Source: Bacteroidota bacterium
Lineage (GTDB): Bacteria; Bacteroidota; Bacteroidia; Bacteroidales; F082
Length of the DNA stretch: 64,000 bases
Reading direction: 5' to 3'
Assembly: GCA_016845105.1 (NCBI GenBank)
Contig: JAERTF010000147.1
Coordinates: forward strand, 1-64,000
The position numbers were made by a program, and so were the translations under genes. Shown one piece after another: positions 4,671 through 39,964 of this stretch (position 1 is its first letter; every line of letters begins with the position of its first letter). Below the pieces are notes generated by a model. It saw nothing but the letters and a program-made list of their open reading frames with translations, had not been told where the DNA came from and made no database searches.

Positions 4671-5151
4671 CTTCCCTTTTAACTTTTTCAAGCACCGGAT
4701 GCTTGCTAAAATACTTGGCTAACAAAGTTGATCTCTTTTTGTATATTTCGTTATGAAGGGCACTAATATCAAACTCCAAGGATATCATGTTATCATCTTT
4801 TGTGCTTATCTTGTCAACCAAAGAGTGAATAAGAAATAATTTTCTGTCACCATCTTTTTTCATTATATCTTCAAAATCAAATTTTTCAGAAAAAAGAGTA
4901 ACAACCTGATAATCAACCCCATGAAATGATATTGTGATGTTTTTGTAGTCGGAATGATAGCCAATGCTAATATTTTCATTCGGATAGTTTTCGAGCAGAT
5001 AATTAAACAATTCACTTACTGATATAAGAATGTTTCCGTAATACGTATCATTGATAAAGAGCTGATCGCAAACTGCATCAACAAAAAATTCAATATCTCT
5101 TATGGATTCTGGTTTAAGATTAATAGTAACAGACTGATTGTTATTTACCAT
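4663..5151 (-). CDS. Small HATPase-like (anti-sigma/GHKL fold) ATP-binding protein
   Basis: This 162-residue soluble protein is recognised mainly from context and its N-terminal pattern. It starts with a beta-strand and then a helix pair (residues about 15-60) resembling the N-box region of RsbW-type HATPase_c_2 proteins (ISVSELFNYLLENY). In Bacteroidota an RsbW-like ATP-binding protein commonly precedes ybeY. The usual DxGxG nucleotide loop is not clear, so ATP binding is uncertain here. It overlaps the upstream DUF4175 gene by 11 bases and ybeY by 8 bases, so all are likely co-translated. Its cellular role is unknown. Confidence 0.7.
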   Translation of the reverse strand: MVNNNQSVTINLKPESIRDIEFFVDAVCDQLFINDTYYGNILISVSELFNYLLENYPNENISIGYHSDYKNITISFHGVDYQVVTLFSEKFDFEDIMKKDGDRKLFLIHSLVDKISTKDDNMISLEFDISALHNEIYKKRSTLLAKYFSKHPVLEKVKREDD

Positions 5152-8100
5152 CTTTATTTTCTTTTTCTAGTTTATAAAGATATTCTTTAAGCAGCTTTTT
5201 GTAATATGGAGCAACCTCAATGGGTGTCGTGATTAATATCTCCTCTTGTATATCTTTTGTTGGTTTATACTCAATTTTATTGTTTAGGTTACTAGATTTT
5301 CGATTTTTACCCTCCTTCGACTCTCGCTTTTTCTCCTTTTCCCTTTCTTGTAAGGCTTTTTGTGATTTTAACAGTCTTGTTTCGATGTTTTTTTGCCTTT
5401 CGATGGTTTCCATTGTCACCCTTCTGTTAACTACATCGTCTTCTGTTTTTTTCATTTCTTCTACAACCTTGTTTAAAGCACTTCCATTACCACCTTCTCC
5501 TTCTAGTTGCTCAATAAATTCCTGAAGCATTCTTCTAATTTCACTTTGTGCGGCAGCCATCCTGGCCAATTCCTCACTTTTCTTATTAAGTCCATTTTCA
5601 CCATCTAAACCATTTTTTTTCGCTTTGCCTTTTAAACCTTCACTCATTCCTTTTTGTTGATTTAATATTTCAGACATCGACGGTGATTTACCTTTGCCTG
5701 GGTTTTTACATTTGCTTCCTCCTTTTTTGCTACTTGACATTTGCATTGCTTTCTTCATTTGTTCCAATGATTCACTAAGCATTAATGAAAGATTATTCAT
5801 AGATGTCATTGCATATTGTTGCTCTGATGATGCAGGTCCTTTTTTCTGTTCCTGTAGCTGTGATAAGGCATTTTCAATGTGCGCCACAATTTTTCCAGAT
5901 TCTTTTATAATAAATGGTTTTATGGCGGCCTGTCTTTTACCCATTGCTGATAACGAATCGTTAATAATCATAAAGTCATCCTTTAAATCAACTTGCTGAT
6001 CTCTGATTTCAGCATTTTTGGGATCGTTTTTGGATGTGATATGAAGAGTTTTTATTAGGCTTTCCTGGGCAAAACTTAAATCCAGAAGGTTGTCAAGCAT
6101 ATTTTTAATTTGATCAACGTCTTCTCCCATGCGCTCTTCCATTTCAGATTGCATCATCATAGAAAGGCCGTTTGCCATTTTCTGCATTTTATCGCCAGCG
6201 TTTTTTTGATTCTCTGAAGCTTTGTTTTTCTTTCCTTTTGAGATATTTTCCTGAGCATCCTCCATTTGTTTATTAATCTCAGTTGACATTGCAGTATCAA
6301 TTTCCATTTTATATGGATCCTCAAGCTCCTTGTTTAATTCATCTGCATTATCAAGGTCTTTCATCAATTCATCAAACTTATTCTGTATATCACTCTGTTT
6401 CTCTTTTGCCTCATCCTTGCTGTTTTCCTTGTTTTTCGTTTGATTACTAAGCTCTTTCTCTTCTTTTGCAAGCTTATTAAGCTCTTCGATAGACTCTTCA
6501 ATCAACCTTTCAAACTCCAACTGTTTATATAACTCTAGGTTTTGCTCAAGTTCATCTTTCAAGTCTTCATTTTGTTGTTTCATTTTATCCAAAAAATCCC
6601 CAACCTTTTCTTTTTCCAACTCTTCTTTAAGCTTTTCAATCTCTTTCTCAAGGTCTTTATTAAAGAGGTCGTTAAACAGTTCTTCCAGCTGTTTTAATTT
6701 TTCCACCAGATCAGGACTTAACTTATCCTTAAGAAGCTCCTCAAGTTCCTTAATGTCTTCATTTAACTTCTTAATTTCATCCAATTTATTTTTAATATCC
6801 TCTTCTTTTTTCAGCAAGTCAGACAGTTGTTGTTTATCAGCCCAGCTTAGATCTTTCTTCTCAAAAAGATTAAGTCTCGTCTCATCCAATTGTTTGTCTA
6901 AAGCATTGATTTCTTTAATGGATTCATTAAGCTTTGACTTCATCTGATTTGAGCTATTCTCAATCTTATTTTCTATTTCTTCTGCATCAGGTAACTGGAA
7001 AGAATACATTTCCGATTTAGAGCGTTTATACCAATTAACACCATCGTTATCTCTAACTTCAAAATAGTAATGTAAAGCATCTCCGGGCAACAACCCATAA
7101 TCCATGGCGAAAAGCATATAATCAAAATGTTGCTGAGATATTGAATTATCAATTATGAGCTTATTTTTTTTCCAGCCAGATTCAGGAATAGTATCTTTAC
7201 GATAATAAAAATACAATGATGAAAACCCATGGTCATCACTAATTGTACCGGTGAAATTAATTAACCCATAATTATTTTCATCCTTAAATTCATTGGCAGT
7301 AATAATGGGATATTCATCCTTAATTACTTGTACATTGAACGACATGGTATCATTGCTAACCATGTAACTATTATCAGAGCTTAATGAATAATTAAAATTG
7401 CTTGATGCAATCAAGTTATGCTTGAATACGTTCGACTCCTTATATTGTAAAATTGATATACTATCCTTAATAATAAAATGTACATTTCGGGTGTCACGGG
7501 TAAAAATACTCCAGCTTAACTTTGTTCCTTCTGGAACTATTAAATCGCCTGTGTTTTCAATAATATCAGCTTGTTTATTCAGGTATTTTGGGTAATCCAA
7601 AAGCACACTAAAGTTAAAAATTACAGGTTGTGGATATACTTCAAGATGGTATTTCGAACTGGTGAACTCGTCTGTTGCTATGGAAAAGTATTTATCGGAT
7701 AGAACATCCTTAAAGACATATTCAAAAATTCCCGGATTAATTTCTTGCATGTAGTAATTATAGCCATTTTCAACCACCCACACCTTATTTGGAATTTCGT
7801 CTCCAATCAACCTAAGTTTAATTGAATAATTATTGTGCTGAGCACACGTAAAGTTACTATTTAATAGCTCGATAGTATAGGGTAGGGGTTTTGCAAATTC
7901 TGTTGAGTGATTTATTATTCGATCAGTTGGGTTAAAAATAAAACCTGGAGATATGATTAAAATTACAAGTAATATTGCTAAAGGCGGGGCAAGGAATTTT
8001 ATATATCTGATATTTGTTCTGTATTTTATCGCACTTTTAAAAGGTACAGGACTGAGTGCTTCAGATTTCTGTTCAATGCTAGCCAGCAATAACTCCATAT

Positions 8101-8467
8101 TTGAATCAGTAGCCTTGTTGTGTAATTGCAACGTATTTAAAAGCTTATCGCTTACTTCAGGAAAATGTATGCCAATAATCATTGCAGCATCCTCATGTGA
8201 AATCATTTTTCCTAGCTTAATAATCTTCAAGGCGGGGATTATCACAAAATAAACTAGGATGACAAAAACAGCAGTTAGAAATAAATAGAAAATTATAGTT
8301 CTTGTAATTGTGTCAGACCAGGAAAGATGTTCAAAAAGACTAATTATCAAAAATAATACAGCAATAAGAGTAATGCTTAAAATGGCACCCTTGATTATTA
8401 AATTCTTGTAATACCTTCTAATGAAGTTGTTTAATTTTGATATTAATATGTCAAATGCAGAACTCAT
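5141..8467 (-). CDS. DUF4175 family membrane/coiled-coil protein
   Basis: About 1108 residues. Two helices near the N-terminus (about 23-45 and 52-77) and one at about 155-177 anchor it in the inner membrane. A beta-rich periplasmic region of roughly 300 residues follows. The rest is very long, charged coiled coil: Lys/Glu-rich heptads at about 500-780, and Met/Gln/Lys-rich helices to about 1040. The arrangement is that of the Bacteroidota DUF4175 family, whose function is unknown; a role in envelope architecture is only a guess. I chose the ATG at 8467 over the frame's first Met at 8521, because a TAnnTTTG promoter element at 8519-8526 covers the upstream Met. It is the first gene of the operon leading to mnmG. 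Confidence 0.85.
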   Translation of the reverse strand: MSSAFDILISKLNNFIRRYYKNLIIKGAILSITLIAVLFLIISLFEHLSWSDTITRTIIFYLFLTAVFVILVYFVIIPALKIIKLGKMISHEDAAMIIGIHFPEVSDKLLNTLQLHNKATDSNMELLLASIEQKSEALSPVPFKSAIKYRTNIRYIKFLAPPLAILLVILIISPGFIFNPTDRIINHSTEFAKPLPYTIELLNSNFTCAQHNNYSIKLRLIGDEIPNKVWVVENGYNYYMQEINPGIFEYVFKDVLSDKYFSIATDEFTSSKYHLEVYPQPVIFNFSVLLDYPKYLNKQADIIENTGDLIVPEGTKLSWSIFTRDTRNVHFIIKDSISILQYKESNVFKHNLIASSNFNYSLSSDNSYMVSNDTMSFNVQVIKDEYPIITANEFKDENNYGLINFTGTISDDHGFSSLYFYYRKDTIPESGWKKNKLIIDNSISQQHFDYMLFAMDYGLLPGDALHYYFEVRDNDGVNWYKRSKSEMYSFQLPDAEEIENKIENSSNQMKSKLNESIKEINALDKQLDETRLNLFEKKDLSWADKQQLSDLLKKEEDIKNKLDEIKKLNEDIKELEELLKDKLSPDLVEKLKQLEELFNDLFNKDLEKEIEKLKEELEKEKVGDFLDKMKQQNEDLKDELEQNLELYKQLEFERLIEESIEELNKLAKEEKELSNQTKNKENSKDEAKEKQSDIQNKFDELMKDLDNADELNKELEDPYKMEIDTAMSTEINKQMEDAQENISKGKKNKASENQKNAGDKMQKMANGLSMMMQSEMEERMGEDVDQIKNMLDNLLDLSFAQESLIKTLHITSKNDPKNAEIRDQQVDLKDDFMIINDSLSAMGKRQAAIKPFIIKESGKIVAHIENALSQLQEQKKGPASSEQQYAMTSMNNLSLMLSESLEQMKKAMQMSSSKKGGSKCKNPGKGKSPSMSEILNQQKGMSEGLKGKAKKNGLDGENGLNKKSEELARMAAAQSEIRRMLQEFIEQLEGEGGNGSALNKVVEEMKKTEDDVVNRRVTMETIERQKNIETRLLKSQKALQEREKEKKRESKEGKNRKSSNLNNKIEYKPTKDIQEEILITTPIEVAPYYKKLLKEYLYKLEKENKDGK

Positions 8468-8518
8468 GAAAACAATTGCGATCCTTTTTTTGTCTGTAAT
8501 AAGTATATTTGTAATCGG

Positions 8519-8526
8519 CAAAGATA
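8519..8526 (-). promoter_or_regulatory. -7 promoter element of the DUF4175-ybeY-mnmG operon
   Basis: The minus strand reads TATCTTTG, an exact TAnnTTTG match. Transcription starting a few bases downstream gives a leader of about 45 bases to the ATG at 8467 and excludes the upstream in-frame Met. Confidence 0.55.
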
Positions 8527-14212: not shown

Positions 14213-14662
14213 TTATTCACCCATACTTTCTGTATCGGATTTTGAATCGGTTATAATGACAAGTACATGTGGGTTCTCACCTGCGGAGATTCTGATAGTT
14301 GTAAAACTAATATACTGAAAAACGACTTCATCACTTAAGCGAAAGTCTCTTACTATTTGTTTTACAACACTATTCTTTTTGCTTGTAAGACAAGATTTTA
14401 GCGCATCACGAATCGCACAAAGCTGACAATAATAATTCCCGCCACAATCCTTTCCATCTTTTTCTATATACATACAACCCATTACATTACCATAAGGCTG
14501 GTTAAGGATTTCACTTTGAGATTTTTGGACAAAGCTTTCGAAGGCCTCATTGGCATAGGTTATAATATAATCCTGATTTGAAATGAATACCGGATTTGTT
14601 ATATTTTCATTCAGTACCGTAAACAGGTTAACAAGTTCATTATGTGATAGGTTAAATAACAT
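14213..14662 (-). CDS. Stand-alone PAS domain protein with Cys4 motif
   Basis: A 149-residue cytosolic protein with one PAS domain (about 10-125). Inside the PAS fold it carries Cys63, Cys73, Cys79 and Cys82 (C-x9-C-x5-C-x2-C), followed by AIRDAL. This Cys-rich insert recalls the CGxxxxCxxCG pattern in many uncharacterised PAS proteins and could bind a metal or Fe-S cluster, or act as a redox switch. It has no output domain. Its ATG is immediately adjacent to the histidine kinase stop codon, so it is the third gene of the H-NOX operon. It may modulate the kinase or relay a second input. The PAS assignment is reasonably sure; the ligand is unknown. Confidence 0.8.
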   Translation of the reverse strand: MLFNLSHNELVNLFTVLNENITNPVFISNQDYIITYANEAFESFVQKSQSEILNQPYGNVMGCMYIEKDGKDCGGNYYCQLCAIRDALKSCLTSKKNSVVKQIVRDFRLSDEVVFQYISFTTIRISAGENPHVLVIITDSKSDTESMGE

Positions 14663-16036
14663 CTAGCTGTGTGTTTTATCCGGAATTATTGACTTGATCT
14701 CATTGAATAATTTATCAGGGTTTACCGGTTTTGTAATAAACCCATCCATCCCCGAATCCATTATTTCCTTCTGTGATTCTTCAAAAGCATTGGCAGTGAA
14801 AGCGATAATTGGTAACTTGCGAACATTCTCAAATTCCTCATCAGTTCGGATTATTCTGGTGGCTTCAACACCACTCATTTCAGGCATCTGTACATCCATC
14901 AAAACCAAATCATATTGCTTTTGTTTAAGAAGATAAAGAGCCTCTTTACCACTTGAAGCAATGTCTACCGAACAATTCCATTTACTCAATATTTTGGAAA
15001 CAACAAGCTGGTTTATCTTCACATCATCCACAACCAAGATGTGTGCGTCAACTGATTTGTTTTCAAACGGATTGCTTTTTTCCTTAAAAACAGGAGCGTC
15101 TTTTTGATGTTTATATGGCAGTTCAAAAATGAATGTGGAACCTTTTCCATACTTACTTTCTACCTTTATTGAACCACCCTGAAGCTCTATAAAATTCTTG
15201 GTAATTGTTAACCCAAGTCCGGTTCCCCCAAATTTTCTGCTAATTGTAGTATCACTTTGCATAAAACTGCCGAAGATGTTATTAATTTGGTCTTCTTTTA
15301 TACCAATTCCGGTATCCTTTACCTTGAAGGCTATGGTAACTGTCTCTTTTGATTCGTTATAATAACTTAGCTTGCATGTTAGTTTTACATACCCATGTTC
15401 GGTGAACTTCACAGCGTTACCAACGATATTATTCAAAATCTGATTTAGTTTTACTGGGTCACCTTTCAATGATTGAGGAATCGACTCATCATAATCAAGT
15501 ATGAAATCGACACCTTTCTTTTTAGCCGATTGACTTAGGTTCTTATGTGTGTTTTTGACCAGCTCAGGCAGATCAAACTGAATATCTTCAAAGGTAATTT
15601 TCCCGGCTTCAATTTTTGAGAAATCCAATATTTCGTTAATTACCTGGCTAAGGTGATTCGCTGAAAACTTAATGTTTTCTAGCATATCCCTTACATTCTC
15701 ATTCAGATCTTCATTTAGCACTATTTCTGATAATCCGATAACACCATTTAATGGTGTTCTTAGTTCATGAGTCATATTTGACAAGAACTCTGATTTAGCC
15801 CGAGTCGCTTCTTCTGCAACCTTCTTCGCCTTAAATAGATCTTCCTTAGATTTTTCTATATCGCGGGTTCTTTTTTCAATGATGCTCTCCTGGTTTTTGT
15901 TGGTTTCCAGAAGTTGTTGATTTGCGTAATATAACTCAAGGGCTTTCTGTTCAATAATCCTTTCTGCTTCCTTACGAGATTTTCGTTCTCGTTCAAAAGC
16001 TTTTTTTAACTTGTTATATTTATCCGTATCGATCAA
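14663..16036 (-). CDS. H-NOX-associated hybrid histidine kinase/response regulator
   Basis: This 457-residue cytoplasmic kinase has no transmembrane segment. A coiled coil (about 1-80) leads to the HisKA domain with the phospho-acceptor His90 in MTHELRTPLNG. The HATPase_c domain follows, with the N box around Asn207 and G boxes DTGIGI (241-246) and GGTGLGL (270-276). A C-terminal receiver domain has DDV near 337 and the acceptor Asp381 in LMDVQMPEMSG. Lying directly downstream of an H-NOX gene (3-base gap), it fits the HnoK class whose autophosphorylation is controlled by NO-bound H-NOX. The receiver on the same protein implies a phosphorelay; no separate output regulator is seen in the operon. 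Confidence 0.93.
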   Translation of the reverse strand: MIDTDKYNKLKKAFERERKSRKEAERIIEQKALELYYANQQLLETNKNQESIIEKRTRDIEKSKEDLFKAKKVAEEATRAKSEFLSNMTHELRTPLNGVIGLSEIVLNEDLNENVRDMLENIKFSANHLSQVINEILDFSKIEAGKITFEDIQFDLPELVKNTHKNLSQSAKKKGVDFILDYDESIPQSLKGDPVKLNQILNNIVGNAVKFTEHGYVKLTCKLSYYNESKETVTIAFKVKDTGIGIKEDQINNIFGSFMQSDTTISRKFGGTGLGLTITKNFIELQGGSIKVESKYGKGSTFIFELPYKHQKDAPVFKEKSNPFENKSVDAHILVVDDVKINQLVVSKILSKWNCSVDIASSGKEALYLLKQKQYDLVLMDVQMPEMSGVEATRIIRTDEEFENVRKLPIIAFTANAFEESQKEIMDSGMDGFITKPVNPDKLFNEIKSIIPDKTHS

Positions 16037-16039
16037 GAT

Positions 16040-16579
16040 CTACTTTTTTGTAAGTCTAAATTTCACTTTTGAGCCATCTTCAAAAATTAACTCTTTTTCA
16101 ATTTTAATTTCTTCATTAAAGAACTCAATTGCACCAAGCAGAAGTCCATGGGCAAAATCACCAAATTTTCTATTTGAAGTATAGATTATTTCTATCATGT
16201 TTTCATTCATTCCCACGGTTTCAACCTTAGGAAGCTCTGCATCAGGATACAGCTTTTTAACCTCAACATGTATATAATTATCAATCTTACTTATAAAAGC
16301 AAATATGGTGATGTCTTCCGGAAAGAAATGAGGATAGAGTTTGGTGAATCGTAAAAACAAATGCTTACCATATGTAACAAGTAGATCTGGGATTTTTGAG
16401 CCAGTTAATTCCGAAAGTTTAATTACCATGGCAACAAGCTCTGAGGAATCGTAAGTTCCTACTCCGGTATATGCCCCATCGTTTGTAAGGTTTGCACCAT
16501 TAATCATATTCTGGGCGGTATCGAATCCAAAAGTGTCTTCTACAAATTCAATGTATTCGGTAAATACCATTCCTTTCAT
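16040..16579 (-). CDS. H-NOX family haem nitric-oxide sensor
   Basis: This 179-residue H-NOX (haem NO/O2-binding) protein senses nitric oxide. It starts MKGMVFTEYIEF, like the family. The proximal haem ligand is His104 in YIHVEVKKLYP, and the propionate-binding YxSxR motif is Tyr133, Ser135, Arg137. From memory of the T. tengcongensis protein, the O2-stabilising distal Tyr140 aligns with Phe142 here, which predicts NO (and CO) rather than O2 binding. I chose the ATG at 16579 over the frame's first Met at 16645, because it matches the family N-terminus and a TAnnTTTG element lies between them. It is the first gene of the H-NOX, kinase, PAS operon and is divergent from gltX. Confidence 0.95.
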   Translation of the reverse strand: MKGMVFTEYIEFVEDTFGFDTAQNMINGANLTNDGAYTGVGTYDSSELVAMVIKLSELTGSKIPDLLVTYGKHLFLRFTKLYPHFFPEDITIFAFISKIDNYIHVEVKKLYPDAELPKVETVGMNENMIEIIYTSNRKFGDFAHGLLLGAIEFFNEEIKIEKELIFEDGSKVKFRLTKK

Positions 16580-16607: not shown

Positions 16608-16615
16608 CAAAAATA
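16608..16615 (-). promoter_or_regulatory. -7 promoter element of the H-NOX operon
   Basis: The minus strand reads TATTTTTG (TAnnTTTG). It lies 29 bases before the ATG at 16579 and downstream of the alternative Met at 16645, so it decides the start. Confidence 0.5.
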
Positions 16616-16698
16616 ACCTTTATTCCAATAATTAACAATAATCATCTATCGTTTTAAGGGTTTAGAGCTTTTATTACACAGGCTCAGCTAATCTTAAT

Positions 16699-23497: not shown

Positions 23498-25792
23498 ATG
23501 ATGGTTATTTCAATTTCCTTTTTAAGGATAATTCTTTTTAGCATTTTACTTTCTGTTGTTTTTTCTTGTAACAGAGTTGAACATTTTAGGGTTGTAGACC
23601 CTCAATTTGAGGGCAGTAAGTCGTGTATTGAGTGCCATGAAAAGGAGTATGCCTTGTGGGTTGGATCTGATCATGACAATGCAATGGATACAGCAATTGC
23701 AGAAACTGTACTAGGAGATTTTAACAATGCAGAGTTTACAAGAAATGGATTTACCAGCCGGTTTTATTCCCGAAATGGAAAATACTATGTTTATACAAAA
23801 GGTCCGGGGGGGGTACCTGGTGAGTTTCAAATTGCTTACACATTTGGAGTAAGGCCTCTTCAACAATATCTAGTTCCCTTTCCAGGAGGAAGACTCCAGT
23901 GCCTCCAAATAACATGGGATACGGAACAAAAGAGATGGTATCATCTTGCAGACTATGTTTACAGTGGTCAGGATATACCTCCTGATGACTGGCTTTATTG
24001 GACCAATAACGGTCAAAACTGGAATGCAATGTGTGCTGAGTGCCACTCCACAAATCTTAGAAAGAATTTTGATCCCCACACTAAAATATACAATACAACA
24101 TGGTCTGAAATCGATGTCAGTTGCGAGGCTTGCCATGGGCCTGGTTCGGAACACAGTAGATGGGCTGATATTGATGAGAAGAAGCGTCCGTATGTTAATA
24201 ATTATGCACTGATGGTACCTACGTCGAATATAAGCTCCCAAAAGCTTGTTGATCAATGTGCCTATTGTCATGCCAGGAGAACATCACTAGATAATCTTGT
24301 TTACCCAAGGGATCAGGTTTTTGATATTATTAGTCCCCAGTTGCCCATAGCCCCTTATTATTATCATGATGGACAGATACTTGAGGAAGATTACGTTTAT
24401 GGATCCTTCACACAGAGTAAGATGCATAAGCAAAGAGTTCGTTGTACCTTTTGTCATGACGCACATAGTTTAAAATTGAAGTTTGATGACAATCGCCTCT
24501 GCTACCAATGTCATGTTAAAGAAAAGTATAGTGGATACAAACATCATTTTCATAAATTACCCGGTGAAGAAGGGGCAGCTCTTGTGATTGAGGATGGTAA
24601 TAAGATAGTTCCTGTAGGAGAAGGTTCCAAATGTATACCATGCCATATGCCAGGGAAGCATTTTATGGGAGTTGACTATCGCCGTGATCATAGTATGAGA
24701 ATCCCACGCCCGGATTTAAGTGATAAACTGGGAACTCCAAATGCATGTGTTCATTGTCATACTGATCAAACCAATGCATGGGCCGCAGAATATACTCAAA
24801 AATGGTATGGCAAGCCTACCAGGTATCATTTTGGTGAAACGATGTTTCGGGCTGCCAACAATGATACAACCGTAGTTACTGACTTACTCTGGTTAATTAA
24901 TGATGAAAATGCCGGGGGGATTGTAAGAGCTGCAGGAGTTTATTACCTGGGTATGTATCCGGGAAATAATAATAAATTAAGGGAGAAACTTTCTGATGAA
25001 AATCCAATAGTCCGCCGAGAAGCAGTTCGTAACTTTACTCCAGAGAGCATTGAAGACTTGGTAACATCCGTTGCACCCTTGCTTAAGGATACCACGAGGA
25101 TGATCCGAATTGAAGCTGCATACAAACTAAGTGGTGTTCCGATGGATAACTTCGATACGACAGATCAAATTCTAATGAAAAGAAGTATTCAGGACTATAT
25201 TAAGGCAATGGAATATTCTGCTGATTTTTCCGCAAGCAGACATAATCTTGGTAATATATATTCAAATATTGGTCAGACCGATAAGGCAATCGAAAATTAC
25301 AAGGAAGCCATTAGAATAGATAGTTTGTTTTACCCCTCACTTATGAATTTGGCAATGGTTTATAACCGAACTGGGAGTAACAATAAAGCTCTGAAATTAC
25401 TTCAGCATGTTGTTCAATATAACCCTGAATTAGGTGATGCATGGTATTCACTTGGACTGTTGCAATCGGAGATGGGAGACTATGATAATTCGATTAAAAG
25501 CCTTGAAATGGCTGCAGAGCTTATGCCCGATAGGCCACGAATTTGGTTTAATTTATTCAGGCTTCATGATTTTAAGCAAGAAAATTATAAAGCCGAAAAC
25601 ACATTGAACCGCAGTCTCGATCTTGAACCTCAAAACATAGAATTTTTATCTGCAAAGGTAGAGCTCCTTATCAAATTAGGAAGGGAAAAGGAAGCTGTAG
25701 ATGTTGCAAAAAAGATTCTGGAGTATCATCCAAATATCAGTGACAAGGATGTAGTGGAAGACTTTATTATAAGGGTTGAGGAGATGTTTTAA
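23498..25792 (+). CDS. Eight-haem c-type cytochrome lipoprotein with C-terminal TPR repeats
   Basis: A 764-residue envelope protein. The lipobox VFSC (Cys24) indicates a lipoprotein. Eight CxxCH haem motifs start at Cys43, Cys179, Cys209, Cys254, Cys316, Cys335, Cys379 and Cys417. A helical stretch follows, and then TPR repeats from about residue 560 (ASRHNLGNIYSNIGQTDKA, and similar at 610 and 645). The haems are grouped in the first 420 residues like cytochrome c554/multihaem redox proteins; the TPRs may dock a partner. Electron acceptor and pathway are unknown. It appears monocistronic. Multihaem cytochromes with TPR domains are found in anaerobic or microaerobic Bacteroidota. Confidence 0.92.
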   Translation: MMVISISFLRIILFSILLSVVFSCNRVEHFRVVDPQFEGSKSCIECHEKEYALWVGSDHDNAMDTAIAETVLGDFNNAEFTRNGFTSRFYSRNGKYYVYTKGPGGVPGEFQIAYTFGVRPLQQYLVPFPGGRLQCLQITWDTEQKRWYHLADYVYSGQDIPPDDWLYWTNNGQNWNAMCAECHSTNLRKNFDPHTKIYNTTWSEIDVSCEACHGPGSEHSRWADIDEKKRPYVNNYALMVPTSNISSQKLVDQCAYCHARRTSLDNLVYPRDQVFDIISPQLPIAPYYYHDGQILEEDYVYGSFTQSKMHKQRVRCTFCHDAHSLKLKFDDNRLCYQCHVKEKYSGYKHHFHKLPGEEGAALVIEDGNKIVPVGEGSKCIPCHMPGKHFMGVDYRRDHSMRIPRPDLSDKLGTPNACVHCHTDQTNAWAAEYTQKWYGKPTRYHFGETMFRAANNDTTVVTDLLWLINDENAGGIVRAAGVYYLGMYPGNNNKLREKLSDENPIVRREAVRNFTPESIEDLVTSVAPLLKDTTRMIRIEAAYKLSGVPMDNFDTTDQILMKRSIQDYIKAMEYSADFSASRHNLGNIYSNIGQTDKAIENYKEAIRIDSLFYPSLMNLAMVYNRTGSNNKALKLLQHVVQYNPELGDAWYSLGLLQSEMGDYDNSIKSLEMAAELMPDRPRIWFNLFRLHDFKQENYKAENTLNRSLDLEPQNIEFLSAKVELLIKLGREKEAVDVAKKILEYHPNISDKDVVEDFIIRVEEMF

Positions 25793-28317: not shown

Positions 28318-30369
28318 TTATGAGTTGATATTTTGTATGATGTCAAGTAATTTCTTCTTGTCTATGGGTTTAGAAATGTATGCATCGCAGCCTGCCTCAC
28401 TAACTATTTTATCATAACCTTCGTGTGCATATGCTGTTTGAGCAATTATATACACTTTCTTATTAAACTTTCTAATTTGTTTTGTTGCTTCAAAACCATC
28501 AAGTTTAGGCATTTTAATGTCCATTAGTATGATATCAATATCTGCAAATTTCTTTGCCATTTCAACTGCATGAACTCCATCTTTTGCATGTATTATAGTT
28601 TCTGCTATATCTGACAAGGCTATTTTTAAAAAATAATATGATGTTTCATCATCTTCAGCAATTAGGATTTTATATTTTTTTGCTTCTTCAGGTTGTTTAA
28701 CTACTTGTTCATGATCTTCAGCCTTTTTTATCTTATCACTCACATTATTAGGGATACGCACATAAAATGTTGTCCCGTTATTTAATTTTGATTTAAGACT
28801 AATATCTCCGTTAAGTAGTTTAACATATTCTTTGGAAATAGATAAACCAAGCCCCGACCCTTCAAAACCGCTGGAATGTGAAAAATTGGCCTGAACAAAA
28901 TGATCAAATATGGTTGACTGTTTATCGGGCGCTATGCCAATTCCCGAATCTGATATCCAAAATTCAGCGAATGAATCAGTAACTAAATATTTAATGTCAA
29001 TAAAGCCTTGCTTAGTAAACTTAAGTGCGTTTTTAATAAGATTAGTAAGGATGGAATTTATTTTGTATTCATCCGTATAAAATTTATGATTTGTAGTTGG
29101 TTTGTCATTGCTTAGAGTTAGGTTTAAACCCTTACTAGATGCTTCTTGCTTGAAAAAACTATAAAGCTCGCCAATCATAATATTAATATCAACTTCCTTT
29201 ATTTGGTTTTCCTCAAGTCCTGATTCCAGCTTGGAAACATCAATAATATTGTTGATGGTTCCCAGCATTCTGTTTCCACTTTGTTTTATTATTTGTATAA
29301 AATGCGCCTTTTTTTCCAGTGAGTAATCGGCTGATTTCAGTAAATCAGTAAATCCCAGAATCCCATTCATTGGGGTTCTTATTTCATGACTCATATTCGC
29401 CAAAAAAGCAGATTTCATTTTATCACTTTCTTCTGCTTTTATTTTTTGATTCTCAAGTTCCTTCATTATTTGAGAATTAAACTCAAGTTGTTTTTGCAGA
29501 TCTTGAGTTTTGCTGCGTACTTTTAATTGAAGTACCCAGTTTAAAATCAATAACAAAAGAAAAATTGCTACTATCAGTATGCTAACAATTAGTATGTATT
29601 TCAGATAATATTGCCATTTGTTATGATTTTTATTGTATTCATTAATCCATTTGTCATAAATGCGCTGGTATTCACCATTGGCTAAAATCACTTCCATCCC
29701 ATTGTTTAATAATTCAACTAATTCGGGAGAACTATTTGAAACCTTGAAGCCCATATTACGTTCTAATATCCTATGACTAAGTGGTAGTACATAATCCTTG
29801 CCTAGTTTATTAGCATAATACATACTTCCTATTCTCTGCCCAAATATGCAGGTAACATCCTCATTATCTAATTCTTTGACTAATTCTTTGTAGTTGTTTA
29901 CATATGTAAACTTGGCAGTTGGATTAATTGAAAGGACATAATAATTTAGCACATCATTTTGCCATACTCCAACCAGTGGCTCTTTTAACGATCTAAAAAA
30001 CTCAAGAGAGAAATTGGAGTGATAATTTGAATTGTATAAAAAACAATGTGATGTATTTATTGCGGATCTGGTATAACTATATTCATTATCAGGACTTCCT
30101 GGGTAGTGTGCACCACCAATAGCATTAATATCGCCATTTTCAAGAGCTTTATTGATTGCCTCCCAACTATTTCCACTTATGGATATGTCCTTATCATATA
30201 GTGCTGAAATAGCATTTAATATATCAACATTAAAACCAACAAGTTCTCCTTTTTCGTTTTCATAATTGTAAGGGGGATAATTGTTACTAAACATTACTTT
30301 GTATTGGGCTTTCAAACCAAATGGGCTGATTGCAACAGCTAATAAAATAAGTAGAACAATATATCGCAT
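28318..30369 (-). CDS. Hybrid histidine kinase with periplasmic binding-protein sensor domain
   Basis: About 683 residues. A signal peptide MRYIVLLILLAVAISPFGLKAQ leads to a type 3 solute-binding-protein fold (about 23-255, NNYPPYNYENEKGELVGFN). This resembles amino-acid-binding proteins and may bind a small ligand in the periplasm. A transmembrane helix (about 258-280) and a coiled coil lead to HisKA with His in NMSHEIRTPMNG, HATPase_c (GIGI and GSGLGLSI boxes), and a receiver domain with the acceptor Asp in LMDIKMPKLDG. I chose the ATG at 30367-30369 since a TAnnTTTG element lies just upstream, and the longer frame to 30534 has no signal-like N-terminus. It is divergent from a fucose-isomerase-like gene. 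Confidence 0.9.
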   Translation of the reverse strand: MRYIVLLILLAVAISPFGLKAQYKVMFSNNYPPYNYENEKGELVGFNVDILNAISALYDKDISISGNSWEAINKALENGDINAIGGAHYPGSPDNEYSYTRSAINTSHCFLYNSNYHSNFSLEFFRSLKEPLVGVWQNDVLNYYVLSINPTAKFTYVNNYKELVKELDNEDVTCIFGQRIGSMYYANKLGKDYVLPLSHRILERNMGFKVSNSSPELVELLNNGMEVILANGEYQRIYDKWINEYNKNHNKWQYYLKYILIVSILIVAIFLLLLILNWVLQLKVRSKTQDLQKQLEFNSQIMKELENQKIKAEESDKMKSAFLANMSHEIRTPMNGILGFTDLLKSADYSLEKKAHFIQIIKQSGNRMLGTINNIIDVSKLESGLEENQIKEVDINIMIGELYSFFKQEASSKGLNLTLSNDKPTTNHKFYTDEYKINSILTNLIKNALKFTKQGFIDIKYLVTDSFAEFWISDSGIGIAPDKQSTIFDHFVQANFSHSSGFEGSGLGLSISKEYVKLLNGDISLKSKLNNGTTFYVRIPNNVSDKIKKAEDHEQVVKQPEEAKKYKILIAEDDETSYYFLKIALSDIAETIIHAKDGVHAVEMAKKFADIDIILMDIKMPKLDGFEATKQIRKFNKKVYIIAQTAYAHEGYDKIVSEAGCDAYISKPIDKKKLLDIIQNINS

Positions 30370-30387
30370 ACAATATATACTTTGAAG

Positions 30388-30395
30388 CAAATTTA
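30388..30395 (-). promoter_or_regulatory. -7 promoter element of the hybrid kinase gene
   Basis: The minus strand reads TAAATTTG (TAnnTTTG), 18 bases before the ATG at 30369 and downstream of the alternative Mets at 30408 and 30534. It supports the shorter start. Confidence 0.5.
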
Positions 30396-30474
30396 ATAAG
30401 ATTCTCATACTCGAATTAGTAATATAAATATATCTTTCCAGATATTTTAAATAATAGCATTTGTTATGAATAAG

Positions 30475-30482
30475 TACCTTTG
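30475..30482 (+). promoter_or_regulatory. -7 promoter element of the isomerase-like gene
   Basis: TACCTTTG is an exact TAnnTTTG match on the plus strand, 41 bases before the ATG at 30524. With the opposing element at 30388-30395 it makes a divergent promoter pair. Confidence 0.45.
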
Positions 30483-30523
30483 CGTCAGATATTACAACTT
30501 TATAAATCGAATAAAACTGACAA

Positions 30524-31690
30524 ATGGAAAACAAAGTATACTATATTTCCTACGATGATAAGGATAATCAACTAAGAAGTAGATCCTTATCAATTTTGAA
30601 TAGTTTCTTTGGCAATGGTAATTTCAAGATAGATGAAGAATTTAGTGGGATATTATTTGTTGCGAGCGGTGGTTCAGAGCAATATGCAGCAAAGCTCAAA
30701 AGCATAAAAAAAAGTATAATTTTATTATGCCATCGAGAAAGTAATTCCTTTGCTGCTACAATTGAAATTGCATCATATTTTAGAGCAAGAAATAAAAATG
30801 TTAGCATAATTAATATTATGAGCCCGAATGCCTACAATGAATTTGTTGAGGTTAATAAAGTTTTTCATGCTATCGAAGATTTATCAAAGCAAAAAGCTGG
30901 TATAATCGGAGAGGTTTCGAGTTGGTTAATTAATTCTGATATCGAGAATAATATTATTAAAGAAAAGCTAGGGGCCGAATTATTAAGAATCCCCTGGAGC
31001 CAGGTTGATGACTATAAGAATGCTGATATTTCGGATAAACTGATGGGTTTTTTCCCTGATTTTGATAAGAAAAAATTGATTGAAACATCAAAAGTATATA
31101 GTGTCTTGGATAAAGTTATTAAACAGCACAATTTGTCTGCAATAAGCGTTGAATGCTTTTCGATGGTAAACAGAGATAAGGTAACAGCCTGTTTGCCACT
31201 AGCTGTATTTAACACCGTAGATATTGTAGCCTCATGTGAAGGAGATGTATGTAGCATGATAGGTAGTTTAATAATAAGATCCTTAACAAACATGATACCC
31301 TGGCAGGCAAATGTTGCAGAAATAAGAGAGAACACAGTCTTACTGGCACATTGTACGGCACCCCTAACCAATTTAAAATCCTTTAACATCACAACCCATT
31401 TCGAAACAAATTGCGGAACTGCGATAGAGGGGAAATTTAATAAAGGTAAAGTTGGTGTTTTTAGAGTCAATAGCAAACTCGATAGTTATATGCTACTTGA
31501 AGGTGAAATTATAGAAACACCCAACCATTCTTTTGCTTGTCGAACTCAGGTTGAGTTTAAAACAACCAAAGAACAAGCATTATTACTTAAGAACAAAGGT
31601 TTGGGCAATCATCATTTGATATTTCCTTTAGAATTAACATCAATTGTTAAATTGATGATGAAACAGTTACGAATTGAAAGGGTGGATTGA
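30524..31690 (+). CDS. L-fucose/L-arabinose isomerase-like protein
   Basis: A 388-residue cytosolic protein with the layout of the fucose/arabinose isomerase superfamily. Its central part includes a VECFSMVN segment near 205 and DVCSMIGSL at about 240. The C-terminal part has AHCTAPL and FETNCGTAIEG, typical of this superfamily. It is shorter than FucI (about 590) and AraA (about 500). I do not know its substrate, and no sugar-kinase or aldolase gene is adjacent. It may be a divergent isomerase or a non-catalytic relative. It is divergent from the hybrid kinase gene and probably monocistronic. Confidence 0.65.
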   Translation: MENKVYYISYDDKDNQLRSRSLSILNSFFGNGNFKIDEEFSGILFVASGGSEQYAAKLKSIKKSIILLCHRESNSFAATIEIASYFRARNKNVSIINIMSPNAYNEFVEVNKVFHAIEDLSKQKAGIIGEVSSWLINSDIENNIIKEKLGAELLRIPWSQVDDYKNADISDKLMGFFPDFDKKKLIETSKVYSVLDKVIKQHNLSAISVECFSMVNRDKVTACLPLAVFNTVDIVASCEGDVCSMIGSLIIRSLTNMIPWQANVAEIRENTVLLAHCTAPLTNLKSFNITTHFETNCGTAIEGKFNKGKVGVFRVNSKLDSYMLLEGEIIETPNHSFACRTQVEFKTTKEQALLLKNKGLGNHHLIFPLELTSIVKLMMKQLRIERVD

Positions 31691-37765: not shown

Positions 37766-39964
37766 CTATTTGGATACCACAACCTTTATTACAGAAGTTT
37801 TGTGCTGTGATTGAACCTTAAGAATATATATTCCATCCCTATAATTTGATAAATCAATATTATACACATTTGTACCCGCTAAACTAATGTTTTGTACAAC
37901 ACTCCCGTTAAGCTGATTAATAGTTATGCTTTCAATTGCTTCCCCATTAGTTGATCTGATGGTGTACAAACCTGAAGTAGGGTTAGGATATCCAATAAAG
38001 TTGTTGTCTTTCGATTGAATATTTTCAACATCAACTATATCCTCATTTGAATATTGGATAAAATATGTATGGCAGCGATAATGTGGCTCGGTGTGGCTTC
38101 CACCATTATATCCTGTGTTGTTGAAGTTTGTATATTCTTCTAGAACAAAGTCCAAAACAACCTCTTGTCCAGGGGTAAAATGACCTGCCATATCCCATTC
38201 CCAGGGTTGGACATCCTGTCCGGGGCACCATCCAGCCCTTGATAGGGTCCATGTGCCTGACTGATTGCTACAGGTGTTTTGATCACAATCATTTCGCCAT
38301 AGATTTTGCTCAAAGGTTTCTTCACCGTTAACCAGCAGGTGATGTGTGAAATTTGAGAATTCTGCAGCATTATGTGTATTTCCTTGCCCATGCCCAGTCA
38401 TTGTCATTCTTATTTTTGCTGCTTCGGTAACCTGATCAACCATAATTGCCATTTCAGGAAAATCGTATGATACTAGAGGGTCACCATATACCCAATTATT
38501 TTCACTCCAAAGCTTATCTACTTTGGTAAATGGATATTCGGGAGTTCCTTCTTGTAGTTCAATTTCGATGGAAACCAGCCAACCTGAAGCTCCCCAAACC
38601 TGAACATAACTTACCCAATCCACCTTGTCAATAAGAAGCGATCTGAAATCGGTAATATCCCAAGTCCAATCGCCACAGGCTTTTCCATATGGAGTTATAT
38701 ATCTGGCAATCTCATAAACCTCTTCATTTTTCACAATATTAACCATAGCAGGCTGGTCCCATGGGTCGCATCCTCCTGTTGGGCATTCCAAATTGATATT
38801 TAAATAAACATGGCTGTACTCACCTAAGTTTTCAGGCATATAAACAGCCTTTGTGTGCGACTGACCATATCCACCATAATTATGACGTTTTTGGTTAAAT
38901 ATCATGTGGTTAAGCGATTGTTCAATGGTTTCTGATAGCTCATCGTTGTCCGTATTTAAATCTCCCTCCAATGATGTATAACCTGTTATTTCTATTTCAG
39001 TAAAGCTACTAAGATCAACAAGTTCGGTGAAGGTGTGAATGTAAGTTTGAAAAGGTTCAATATCAACATTAATTGTTTCTGTTACTAAATCACCATTGTT
39101 TATACTGTATGAGACATCAAAATCAGTTACGGTTTCTGTTGCAAAATTTTTAATCTCTATTTTAATTTTTTCGGATGAGGTAAAACCACTTCCCAGAACT
39201 GATGGATATGCAATGCCAATTACACCAACATCCGCAGTTACAGGCTGAAATCCATCTACCCAAGCATCTTCGCTCATGTTTATTAGTTGACCATTATTAT
39301 TATTTACAGAATTGTCCGCAGTTGTATTTCCAGTCCCCTCATTCATCGGATAATATGCAACCAAACCTATTTCGGTTCCATTTAATTCATTACTCATATT
39401 TGCCTGAATTTCAGCTTCGGTACGTGCGGTACTCCAAATTCGTACCTCATCAAGTTTTCCGTTCCAAAATCTGCCAGGCCATGTGGGATTATCACCAATA
39501 TTTACAACAACTCCAGCTCCAAGAGTTAAGTCTCCAATTGCATCTTCAGTATTTTGAAGTACACCATTTATATACATTTTTAATTGTGTACCATTGTATA
39601 CACCGGCAATATGATACCATGCATTAGTACCCATTAATTGAGGGGTGGCAACAGATTTCCACTCTTCTTCAACTGATATTGTAAACTCAACGCGTCCGTT
39701 TTCTCCTGCGCTTAAGCAATATCCTTTATCGGGGTTGGTCCCTTGTTTGCTAACAATTACTCCTGCCCAAATACTGCTTTGCCATTCTTCTGCATTTATC
39801 CATGCTTCTATGGTTAGTGCTTCCGTGGGGTTTAATTCCGGGCTATCCAAAATTCCTACCTTATCGTTTAAACCATCAAAATCCAAAGCAAAATTTTGTG
39901 CTGCTACATTTAGTGTGGCTATTACTAGAGCCAACATCAGCAATATTGAATATCTTTTTTTCAT
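37766..39964 (-). CDS. Secreted PNGase F-like glycosidase with LamG and T9SS domains
   Basis: A 732-residue exported protein. A signal peptide (about 1-22, ends VAAQ) is followed by a LamG-like jellyroll domain (about 23-215) and an intermediate domain. The PNGase F-like catalytic part (about 340-640) has CDPWDQPAMVNIV, the ARYITPYGKACGDWTWDITD region, and RAGWCPG near 580, and ends before a T9SS type A sorting domain (about 655-732). PNGase F cleaves the amide bond between Asn and the first N-acetylglucosamine of N-glycans. The precise catalytic residues could not be checked here. In a SusCD operon this suggests deglycosylation of host or environmental glycoproteins. Confidence 0.82.
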   Translation of the reverse strand: MKKRYSILLMLALVIATLNVAAQNFALDFDGLNDKVGILDSPELNPTEALTIEAWINAEEWQSSIWAGVIVSKQGTNPDKGYCLSAGENGRVEFTISVEEEWKSVATPQLMGTNAWYHIAGVYNGTQLKMYINGVLQNTEDAIGDLTLGAGVVVNIGDNPTWPGRFWNGKLDEVRIWSTARTEAEIQANMSNELNGTEIGLVAYYPMNEGTGNTTADNSVNNNNGQLINMSEDAWVDGFQPVTADVGVIGIAYPSVLGSGFTSSEKIKIEIKNFATETVTDFDVSYSINNGDLVTETINVDIEPFQTYIHTFTELVDLSSFTEIEITGYTSLEGDLNTDNDELSETIEQSLNHMIFNQKRHNYGGYGQSHTKAVYMPENLGEYSHVYLNINLECPTGGCDPWDQPAMVNIVKNEEVYEIARYITPYGKACGDWTWDITDFRSLLIDKVDWVSYVQVWGASGWLVSIEIELQEGTPEYPFTKVDKLWSENNWVYGDPLVSYDFPEMAIMVDQVTEAAKIRMTMTGHGQGNTHNAAEFSNFTHHLLVNGEETFEQNLWRNDCDQNTCSNQSGTWTLSRAGWCPGQDVQPWEWDMAGHFTPGQEVVLDFVLEEYTNFNNTGYNGGSHTEPHYRCHTYFIQYSNEDIVDVENIQSKDNNFIGYPNPTSGLYTIRSTNGEAIESITINQLNGSVVQNISLAGTNVYNIDLSNYRDGIYILKVQSQHKTSVIKVVVSK

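Follow-up and report, generated by a model that had tools for sequence, protein, structure and literature searches.

A three-gene operon on the minus strand of the window (the whole stretch of 64,000 nucleotides analysed here, positions 1 to 64,000 of contig JAERTF010000147.1 from a Bacteroidota bacterium of the order Bacteroidales) encodes a haem-nitric oxide-binding protein (H-NOX), a hybrid histidine kinase that shows no sensor domain in a Pfam scan, and a small PAS protein with four cysteines, referred to as Cys4-PAS. Complete versions of this triad occur at eight loci, in the window and in seven other genomes, spread over five families of one Bacteroidota order and always in the same gene order, and kinases adjoining the same type of H-NOX outside the order carry PAS domains within the kinase itself. 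Gene content, gene order, recurrence, the split between PAS in cis and PAS in trans, and the conservation of key residues are direct observations. The reading favoured here, in which slightly better than even trust is placed, is that the PAS input of the kinase is supplied by the separate Cys4-PAS protein, with H-NOX as the sensor of nitric oxide (NO) and the PAS protein as a sensor of metal or redox state converging on one kinase. All three proteins belong to known kinds, and it is their combination that constitutes a new version of the H-NOX/HnoK pathway. The features of the locus are as follows.

16040..16579, minus strand: H-NOX, 179 amino acids (aa); Pfam HNOB (PF07700), 124.1 bits, cut-off 25.5
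14663..16036, minus strand: hybrid histidine kinase, 457 aa, TTG start; Pfam HisKA, HATPase_c and Response_reg
15911..15991, minus strand: putative helix at the kinase N-terminus (residues 16-42, approximately), at which H-NOX may dock; sequence pattern
14213..14662, minus strand: small PAS protein of the Cys4 type, 149 aa; Pfam PAS, relatives and Cys conservation
14417..14476, minus strand: predicted metal or redox site of the PAS protein, with Cys63 (14474-14476), Cys73 (14444-14446), Cys79 (14426-14428) and Cys82 (14417-14419); position and conservation
16608..16638, minus strand: candidate Bacteroidota promoter TTG-N20-TATTTTTG, 28 nucleotides (nt) ahead of the H-NOX start; pattern search

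The three genes form one tight operon in the order H-NOX, kinase, PAS, with gaps of 3 nt between the first two and 0 nt between the last two. The start of H-NOX was taken at 16579 (MKGMVF); the listed open reading frame (ORF) begins at an upstream ATG at 16645. An initial annotation, made from the letters of the window, had proposed this operon, which is borne out by the ORFs, the Pfam matches, the short gaps and the seven other genomes, and the residues that it named, namely His104, Y-x-S-x-R and Phe142 of H-NOX and the C-x9-C-x5-C-x2-C pattern of the PAS protein, are all found where it had placed them. The promoter candidate, located with what we take to be the Bacteroidota consensus, is weak because the pattern has five matches in the window against 2.37 expected by chance; with a match count only about twice the expectation, it was dropped as evidence for the operon.

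The window H-NOX contains His104, Pro117, Y133-x-S135-x-R137 and Phe142, and its closest solved relatives by sequence in the Protein Data Bank are 6ocv and 6bde/6bdd. His104, Pro117, Y133, S135 and R137 are invariant in all eight triads, and position 142 is Phe in six, Leu in two and Tyr in none. A distal Tyr motif is the mark of O2 binding in H-NOX proteins, and Phe142 in its place predicts binding of NO over O2; the NO-type H-NOX suggested in the initial annotation is thus supported by sequence, and an O2-sensing H-NOX was rejected because the distal Tyr is absent. Since the window protein has no cysteine, it is not of the type with a three-Cys zinc/redox site, and such a site in cis within H-NOX was likewise rejected; cysteines number zero in 6/8 triad H-NOX proteins, one in G792 and two in G856.

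The kinase is composed of the N-terminal helix, a HisKA domain with His90, an HATPase_c domain and a receiver with Asp381. Its designation as a partner of the HnoK type is supported by sequence, as it adjoins H-NOX and possesses a phosphoacceptor His and an ATP-binding domain, by Pfam and by residues. The PAS protein scores 27.6 bits against PF00989 (cut-off 22.6), with a match that covers only its N-terminal part (residues 18-58); the four cysteines at 63, 73, 79 and 82 are followed by a further one at 91. A phmmer search by sequence returned no convincing solved relative (best E 0.17), and the protein has no match in plasmid or phage collections, on which ground a plasmid or phage cassette was rejected.

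The evidence that carries the favoured reading comes from a comparison of 57 H-NOX loci, comprising six from the family of the window, 29 from a phylum sample (outside the genome of the window; H-NOX was found in 27 of its 395 genomes) and 22 more from the order. H-NOX was recovered by ORF picking and profile in 56 of these loci; in the remaining one (L108, genome G238) it is masked by an overlapping frame and is known from the ORF listing. The window type, defined as at least 196 bits against an eight-row H-NOX profile, occurs in 21 loci: the eight triads, G708 (a locus cut by a contig end inside the kinase and excluded from the triad count) and 12 others, of which 11 lie within the class but in other orders and one lies in another class. 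Behind every H-NOX of this type (21/21) stands a kinase with the N-terminal helix pattern RERxxRxxAExxxExKxxEly, which is found behind none of the 35 other H-NOX genes recovered (29 with a same-strand next gene, six without). As a control, the pattern was sought, with a narrow regular expression, among 37 kinase-like ORFs and was present in 13; a script found no H-NOX beside six of these (window, G905, G007, G022, G309 and G250), and H-NOX does adjoin those six in other fetched stretches. The type of H-NOX therefore predicts the N-terminus of the kinase, with MYG-type H-NOX paired with an FPFYIL-like start and the other type with the RERxxRxxAE helix. As a separate observation, the kinases next to MYG-type H-NOX (L083, L085-L091, L105, L109, L110 and L214) share the FPFYIL-like N-terminus, and the one that was tested matches HNOBA with 64.1 bits.

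Within the window type, the placement of PAS divides sharply. All 12 kinases from outside the order carry one or more PAS domains in cis, located between the N-terminal helix and HisKA, and none of these 12 loci has a small PAS gene behind the kinase; a same-strand third gene is present in nine, encoding a FIST protein in four, a protein of about 106 aa without a Pfam match in three and a response regulator in two, and the other three have none on the strand. All eight triad kinases have only HisKA, HATPase_c and receiver among sensor and kinase domains, and a small PAS gene comes next; in the cut G708 kinase, HisKA lies close behind the helix, at residue 85. Over the 20 complete loci, such a split has a chance probability of 1/C(20,8) = 7.9e-6 if kinship is ignored. 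Two statements of the initial annotation are revised by these results: PAS is less an extra input than a regular one, found inside the kinase in 12/12 relatives outside the order, and the PAS gene, described as a non-standard part of the pathway, is regular in this order (8/8 complete loci). None of the 12 kinases matches the Cys4-PAS profile at E 10 with its cis PAS domains, which indicates that the PAS protein in trans is not simply a cis domain cut off from the kinase, unless it has changed beyond recognition. The position of the cis domains marks the predicted binding place of the PAS protein in trans, between helix and HisKA.

The triad was encountered through several routes. A search with the PAS protein gave matches in 12 of 61 relatives, including the genome of the window, and the two close ones (G007 and G022) each contain the complete triad. 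An H-NOX search across the family gave matches in 5 of 173 genomes, namely that of the window (two copies), G007, G022, G459 and G582, among which G459 has a triad and G582 a MYG-type H-NOX adjoining a kinase of 1287 aa. Triads in two further families (G905 and G921) came from a search of the order with a four-row PAS profile, and an order-wide H-NOX search (22 of 393 genomes, 24 loci), with 20 newly fetched loci, added G792 and G856, again from further families. A scan of genome contigs returned two loci, both already known, on contigs CALCGQ010000304.1 and JAERTD010000077.1 of uncultured Bacteroidetes metagenome-assembled genomes (MAGs). Gaps within the triads range from -11 to +10 nt (-17 in G459 if the ORF is read from its earliest start). 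Flanking genes are common to the window and G007, which belong to the same genus; G022, G459 and the four triads from other families have different ones. The recurrence of this gene trio, in unchanged order, in seven other genomes places the triad beyond chance.

The four cysteines of the PAS protein are retained in six of the eight triads, at identities to the window protein of 38, 35, 37, 28 and 24%, and their codons vary between TGT and TGC. G856 has His in place of Cys73 with unchanged spacing, and G792 has Glu there and only three of the cysteines. Beyond the triads, the motif marks a widespread PAS subtype, and the notion of a rarity peculiar to the operon was rejected. Because the profile searches scored at most 9 or 10 candidates per genome, misses are possible and the counts are lower bounds: the phylum sample contains at least 28 matching genomes besides that of the window, all outside its class. 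Non-triad matches with a known frame are mostly proteins of about 385 aa (kinases where tested), longer proteins, or small ones (about 140-245 aa), and the motif is present in nearly all of them. The four cysteines are present in 77 of 81 aligned stretches, triads included, a tally that rests on a profile of four Cys4 sequences and is biased towards Cys4. The remaining four are two partial matches, one stretch with His, and one, a small relative in G738, that lacks Cys73 and has a Cys at position 58, where 5/81 stretches have one. The His at the same spacing in G856 and the shifted Cys in G738 suit a metal site, and the Cys4-PAS protein is probably a metal or redox sensor. Small Cys4-PAS proteins of about 160 aa also occur across many families of the order (L168, L172, L173, L175-L178, L180-L184), with no constant neighbour seen.

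These observations bear on two other views of the four cysteines. In the first, the PAS protein would be a structural adaptor that holds a structural zinc and, acting as a spacer, dimerises or stabilises the sensorless kinase, leaving NO as the sole signal. The cis/trans split fits this view equally, as do the rapid change outside the cysteines and the replacement of Cys by His in G856, a change that is usual for zinc sites. It is nevertheless regarded as rather unlikely, with two observations speaking mildly against it: in two Cys4-PAS kinases tested elsewhere, Cys4-PAS is the only other domain found, as expected of an input domain, and genes for redox enzymes lie near Cys4-PAS in 5 of 20 fetched loci, which were singled out afterwards. 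The second view, a switch between thiols and disulphides without metal, is more doubtful still; it has a precedent in the two cysteines of the ArcB PAS domain (PMC4601167), and, with no Cys in six of the eight triad H-NOX proteins, a redox input may have moved to the third protein. The His in G856, the shifted Cys in G738 and the three cysteines in G792 suit ligands better than disulphides.

The 20 regions mentioned above were fetched from among the phylum matches (in L116 the ORF picker missed the PAS gene), and their neighbours offer a hint towards ferredoxin or redox state as the signal of the subtype. In G216, the gene of a Cys4-PAS kinase forms a row with NfnA- and NfnB-like ones (by Pfam); in G115 and G311, of one genus, a small Cys4-PAS gene is flanked by an NfnB-like gene on one side and a butyrate-kinase-like gene on the other (by Pfam in G115, by eye in G311); and in G417 and G303, genes resembling 2-oxoacid:ferredoxin oxidoreductase are nearby (one G417 gene by Pfam, the rest by eye). 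The proximity to NfnA/NfnB-like genes, in two lineages, once as a kinase and once as a small protein (L114, 3024-6469; L115, 4621-7785; L031), makes it possible that these proteins sense the state of ferredoxin or of NAD(P)H. In the open-access literature, judged by titles and the beginnings of abstracts, no description of the PAS subtype or of the triad was found.

Several points weigh against the favoured reading. The helix pattern was written after the sequences had been seen, and the counts are not independent because the genomes are related. Cys4-PAS genes are common in the order, with at least 71 of 393 genomes matched by the four-row profile; of the 28 match sites that were fetched, only 2 belong to triads. 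The full set of four cysteines is missing from two of the eight triads (G792 and G856), whose third proteins score only 17 and 27 bits, the weakest matches to the four-row profile, and are therefore assigned to PAS by weak similarity and position. Against Pfam PAS, two of the seven other triad proteins pass (G022 and G792), G459 falls below the cut-off, and G007, G905, G921 and G856 have no match. The PAS protein is also the fastest to diverge, with identities to the window of 38, 35, 37, 28, 24, 20 and 15% in the seven other triads, compared with 43-69% for H-NOX and 43-70% for the kinase; within the family the values are 38, 35 and 37% against 57-70% for H-NOX and kinase.

The phylogenetic trees add to these points. 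The H-NOX tree was built from 25 of 59 collected rows, three of which duplicate triads. In it the four triads from the window's family cluster together (97/94), and a group whose internal branching is not resolved (81/81) unites the triads with G708 and three loci that have PAS in cis; no single triad origin emerges, and a single clade is not rejected (p-AU 0.24 with eight rows, 0.40 with G708). In the PAS tree, made from the eight triad proteins plus 47 further stretches (minimum length 100 aa, shorter ones dropped), five triad proteins form one clade (100/91), three long-branched ones fall elsewhere, and a single clade is again not rejected (p-AU 0.235). A single gain of the PAS gene and repeated recruitment are both possible on these trees.

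The rapid divergence of the PAS protein, the abundance of Cys4-PAS genes in the order and the weak PAS similarity in G792 and G856 would also fit a passenger gene, co-transcribed for historical reasons and standing outside the NO pathway. This explanation is considered highly improbable, as the PAS gene is kept behind the kinase at all eight complete loci in five families while other neighbours change, and it is present only where the kinase has no PAS in cis.

In the favoured reading, with the PAS input supplied in trans, the proposed mechanism would proceed as follows. H-NOX, as expected of its family, would bind NO at ferrous haem, and, by analogy with known H-NOX/HnoK pairs, would contact the neighbouring kinase and alter its activity, most likely through the N-terminal helix as docking segment. 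The kinase itself lacks a sensor domain, and the PAS protein of the next gene would replace the cis PAS of the relatives. To judge from its four cysteines, this protein may bind a metal, as Zn or as an Fe-S cluster, through four ligands and may adjust the activity of the kinase in response to metal, O2 or redox state. His90 would hand its phosphate to Asp381, from where it would reach an Hpt protein and a regulator whose genes lie elsewhere; both are needed because the C-terminal receiver has no output domain. With an H-NOX that has neither Cys nor zinc site and a Cys4 protein from the third gene, the kinase is viewed here as integrating two separate sensors. A more specific version, possible and put forward tentatively, is a coincidence detector with split sensors, in which H-NOX (NO) and an Fe-S or redox-labile PAS protein (O2/redox) act on the sensorless kinase and allow NO without oxygen to be told from NO with oxygen; under this version one might equally speculate that the redox input which some H-NOX proteins have in their own zinc site has here moved to a third protein.

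The genome comprises 4.5 Mb in 210 contigs and is 94.9% complete, and its named near relatives are uncultured Bacteroidetes MAGs. It encodes a cbb3-type oxidase, a second COX1-family gene and a hybrid-cluster protein whose gene adjoins that of a divergent Crp-type regulator, and the oxidases and the hybrid-cluster protein suggest that the organism probably meets low oxygen and reactive nitrogen. The second H-NOX of the genome is found at 43-600 of L017 (G000:C127; HNOB 111 bits), on a contig that begins just ahead of it; no kinase follows, and the next gene (764-1531) is dimethylargininase-like, with 404.8 bits against the NCBIfam DDAH model (cut-off 450). In animals, DDAH acts on NO synthesis. 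Elsewhere in the window, 5141-8521 encodes a protein of 1126 aa without a Pfam match at 1e-5; 23498-25792 a protein of 764 aa in which TPR repeats come after a part resembling cytochrome c554/c7; 28318-30534 a further hybrid histidine kinase, whose sensor domain is of the solute-binding type (SBP_bac_3); and 37766-39964 a candidate deglycosylating enzyme in which PNGase F-like domains are combined with a Laminin_G_3 domain and a Por secretion tail.

As bacterial sensors of NO, H-NOX pathways have received much study, and, if the favoured reading is true, NO may be read here jointly with a metal or redox signal. For some H-NOX proteins, recent work has questioned which of the two, NO or redox, is the real signal (PMC12329717). 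In this lineage the two possible inputs are placed in two proteins, so that one can be deleted or mutated without touching the other. The exchange of a cis PAS for one in trans amounts to a natural experiment on the role of PAS in such kinases, and the N-terminal helix common to the 21 same-type kinases offers a testable docking site.

Compared with known systems, the triad resembles the H-NOX/HnoK pairs of Shewanella oneidensis, Vibrio cholerae and Caulobacter in that H-NOX adjoins a histidine kinase and retains the proximal His, Pro and YxSxR; it differs in that the window kinase is hybrid and without a sensor domain, and in the Cys4-PAS protein of the third gene. The three-Cys zinc/redox site reported for the H-NOX proteins of these three organisms (PMC7108781, PMC12329717) is absent from triad H-NOX. 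Three conserved cysteines forming such a site characterise H-NOX groups 2-4 (PMC7108781), and a Zn/Cys redox input into H-NOX itself is a precedent for the favoured reading (PMC7108781, PMC12329717). In S. oneidensis, NO-bound H-NOX inhibits the neighbouring kinase (PMC8846402), and in Caulobacter the kinase is inhibited by oxidation of the Cys/zinc site rather than by NO (PMC12329717). The H-NOX of Vibrio parahaemolyticus also acts on a hybrid kinase, HqsK, and the available portion of that report mentions no separate PAS protein (PMC8738867).

The 12 loci from other Bacteroidota orders share the H-NOX type and the kinase helix with the triads and differ in the PAS domain inside their kinases and in the third gene. 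The FIST proteins (NosP fold) that fill the third place in four of them parallel the dual input in trans proposed here and suggest that a second sensor in trans beside H-NOX is a recurring theme. FIST proteins after H-NOX and kinase were observed in other Bacteroidota orders at L098, L100, L103 and L104 (as third gene) and at L085, giving two candidate NO sensors per operon. The NosP/NahK system likewise has a second sensor acting in trans beside a kinase, whereas the sensor in the window is PAS and not FIST, a FIST partner being confined to the relatives of other orders. The window kinase reaches 198.7 bits against the NahK/ErcS C-terminal model (cut-off 400), and, as Pfam gives no FIST match in the three proteins, a NosP pathway in the window was rejected. 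The Cys4-PAS subtype elsewhere, in kinases of about 385 aa and small orphans, carries these four cysteines in the corresponding part of its PAS domain; there it is in cis of a kinase or an orphan, and no H-NOX stands beside the non-triad genes in the neighbourhoods scanned for it. All four cysteines of the window protein lie within the PAS domain, as in NreB, and the Cys spacing of NreB is different. A precedent is NreABC of staphylococci, in which the Cys4 PAS domain of NreB binds an O2-labile [4Fe-4S] cluster and the accessory sensor NreA acts on the same kinase (PMC4601167). A Cys4 PAS input and an accessory sensor on one kinase are features of NreABC and, by prediction from sequence, of the triad; in NreB, however, the PAS domain is in cis and the accessory protein is a GAF protein, and in the triad the PAS protein stands in trans beside H-NOX.

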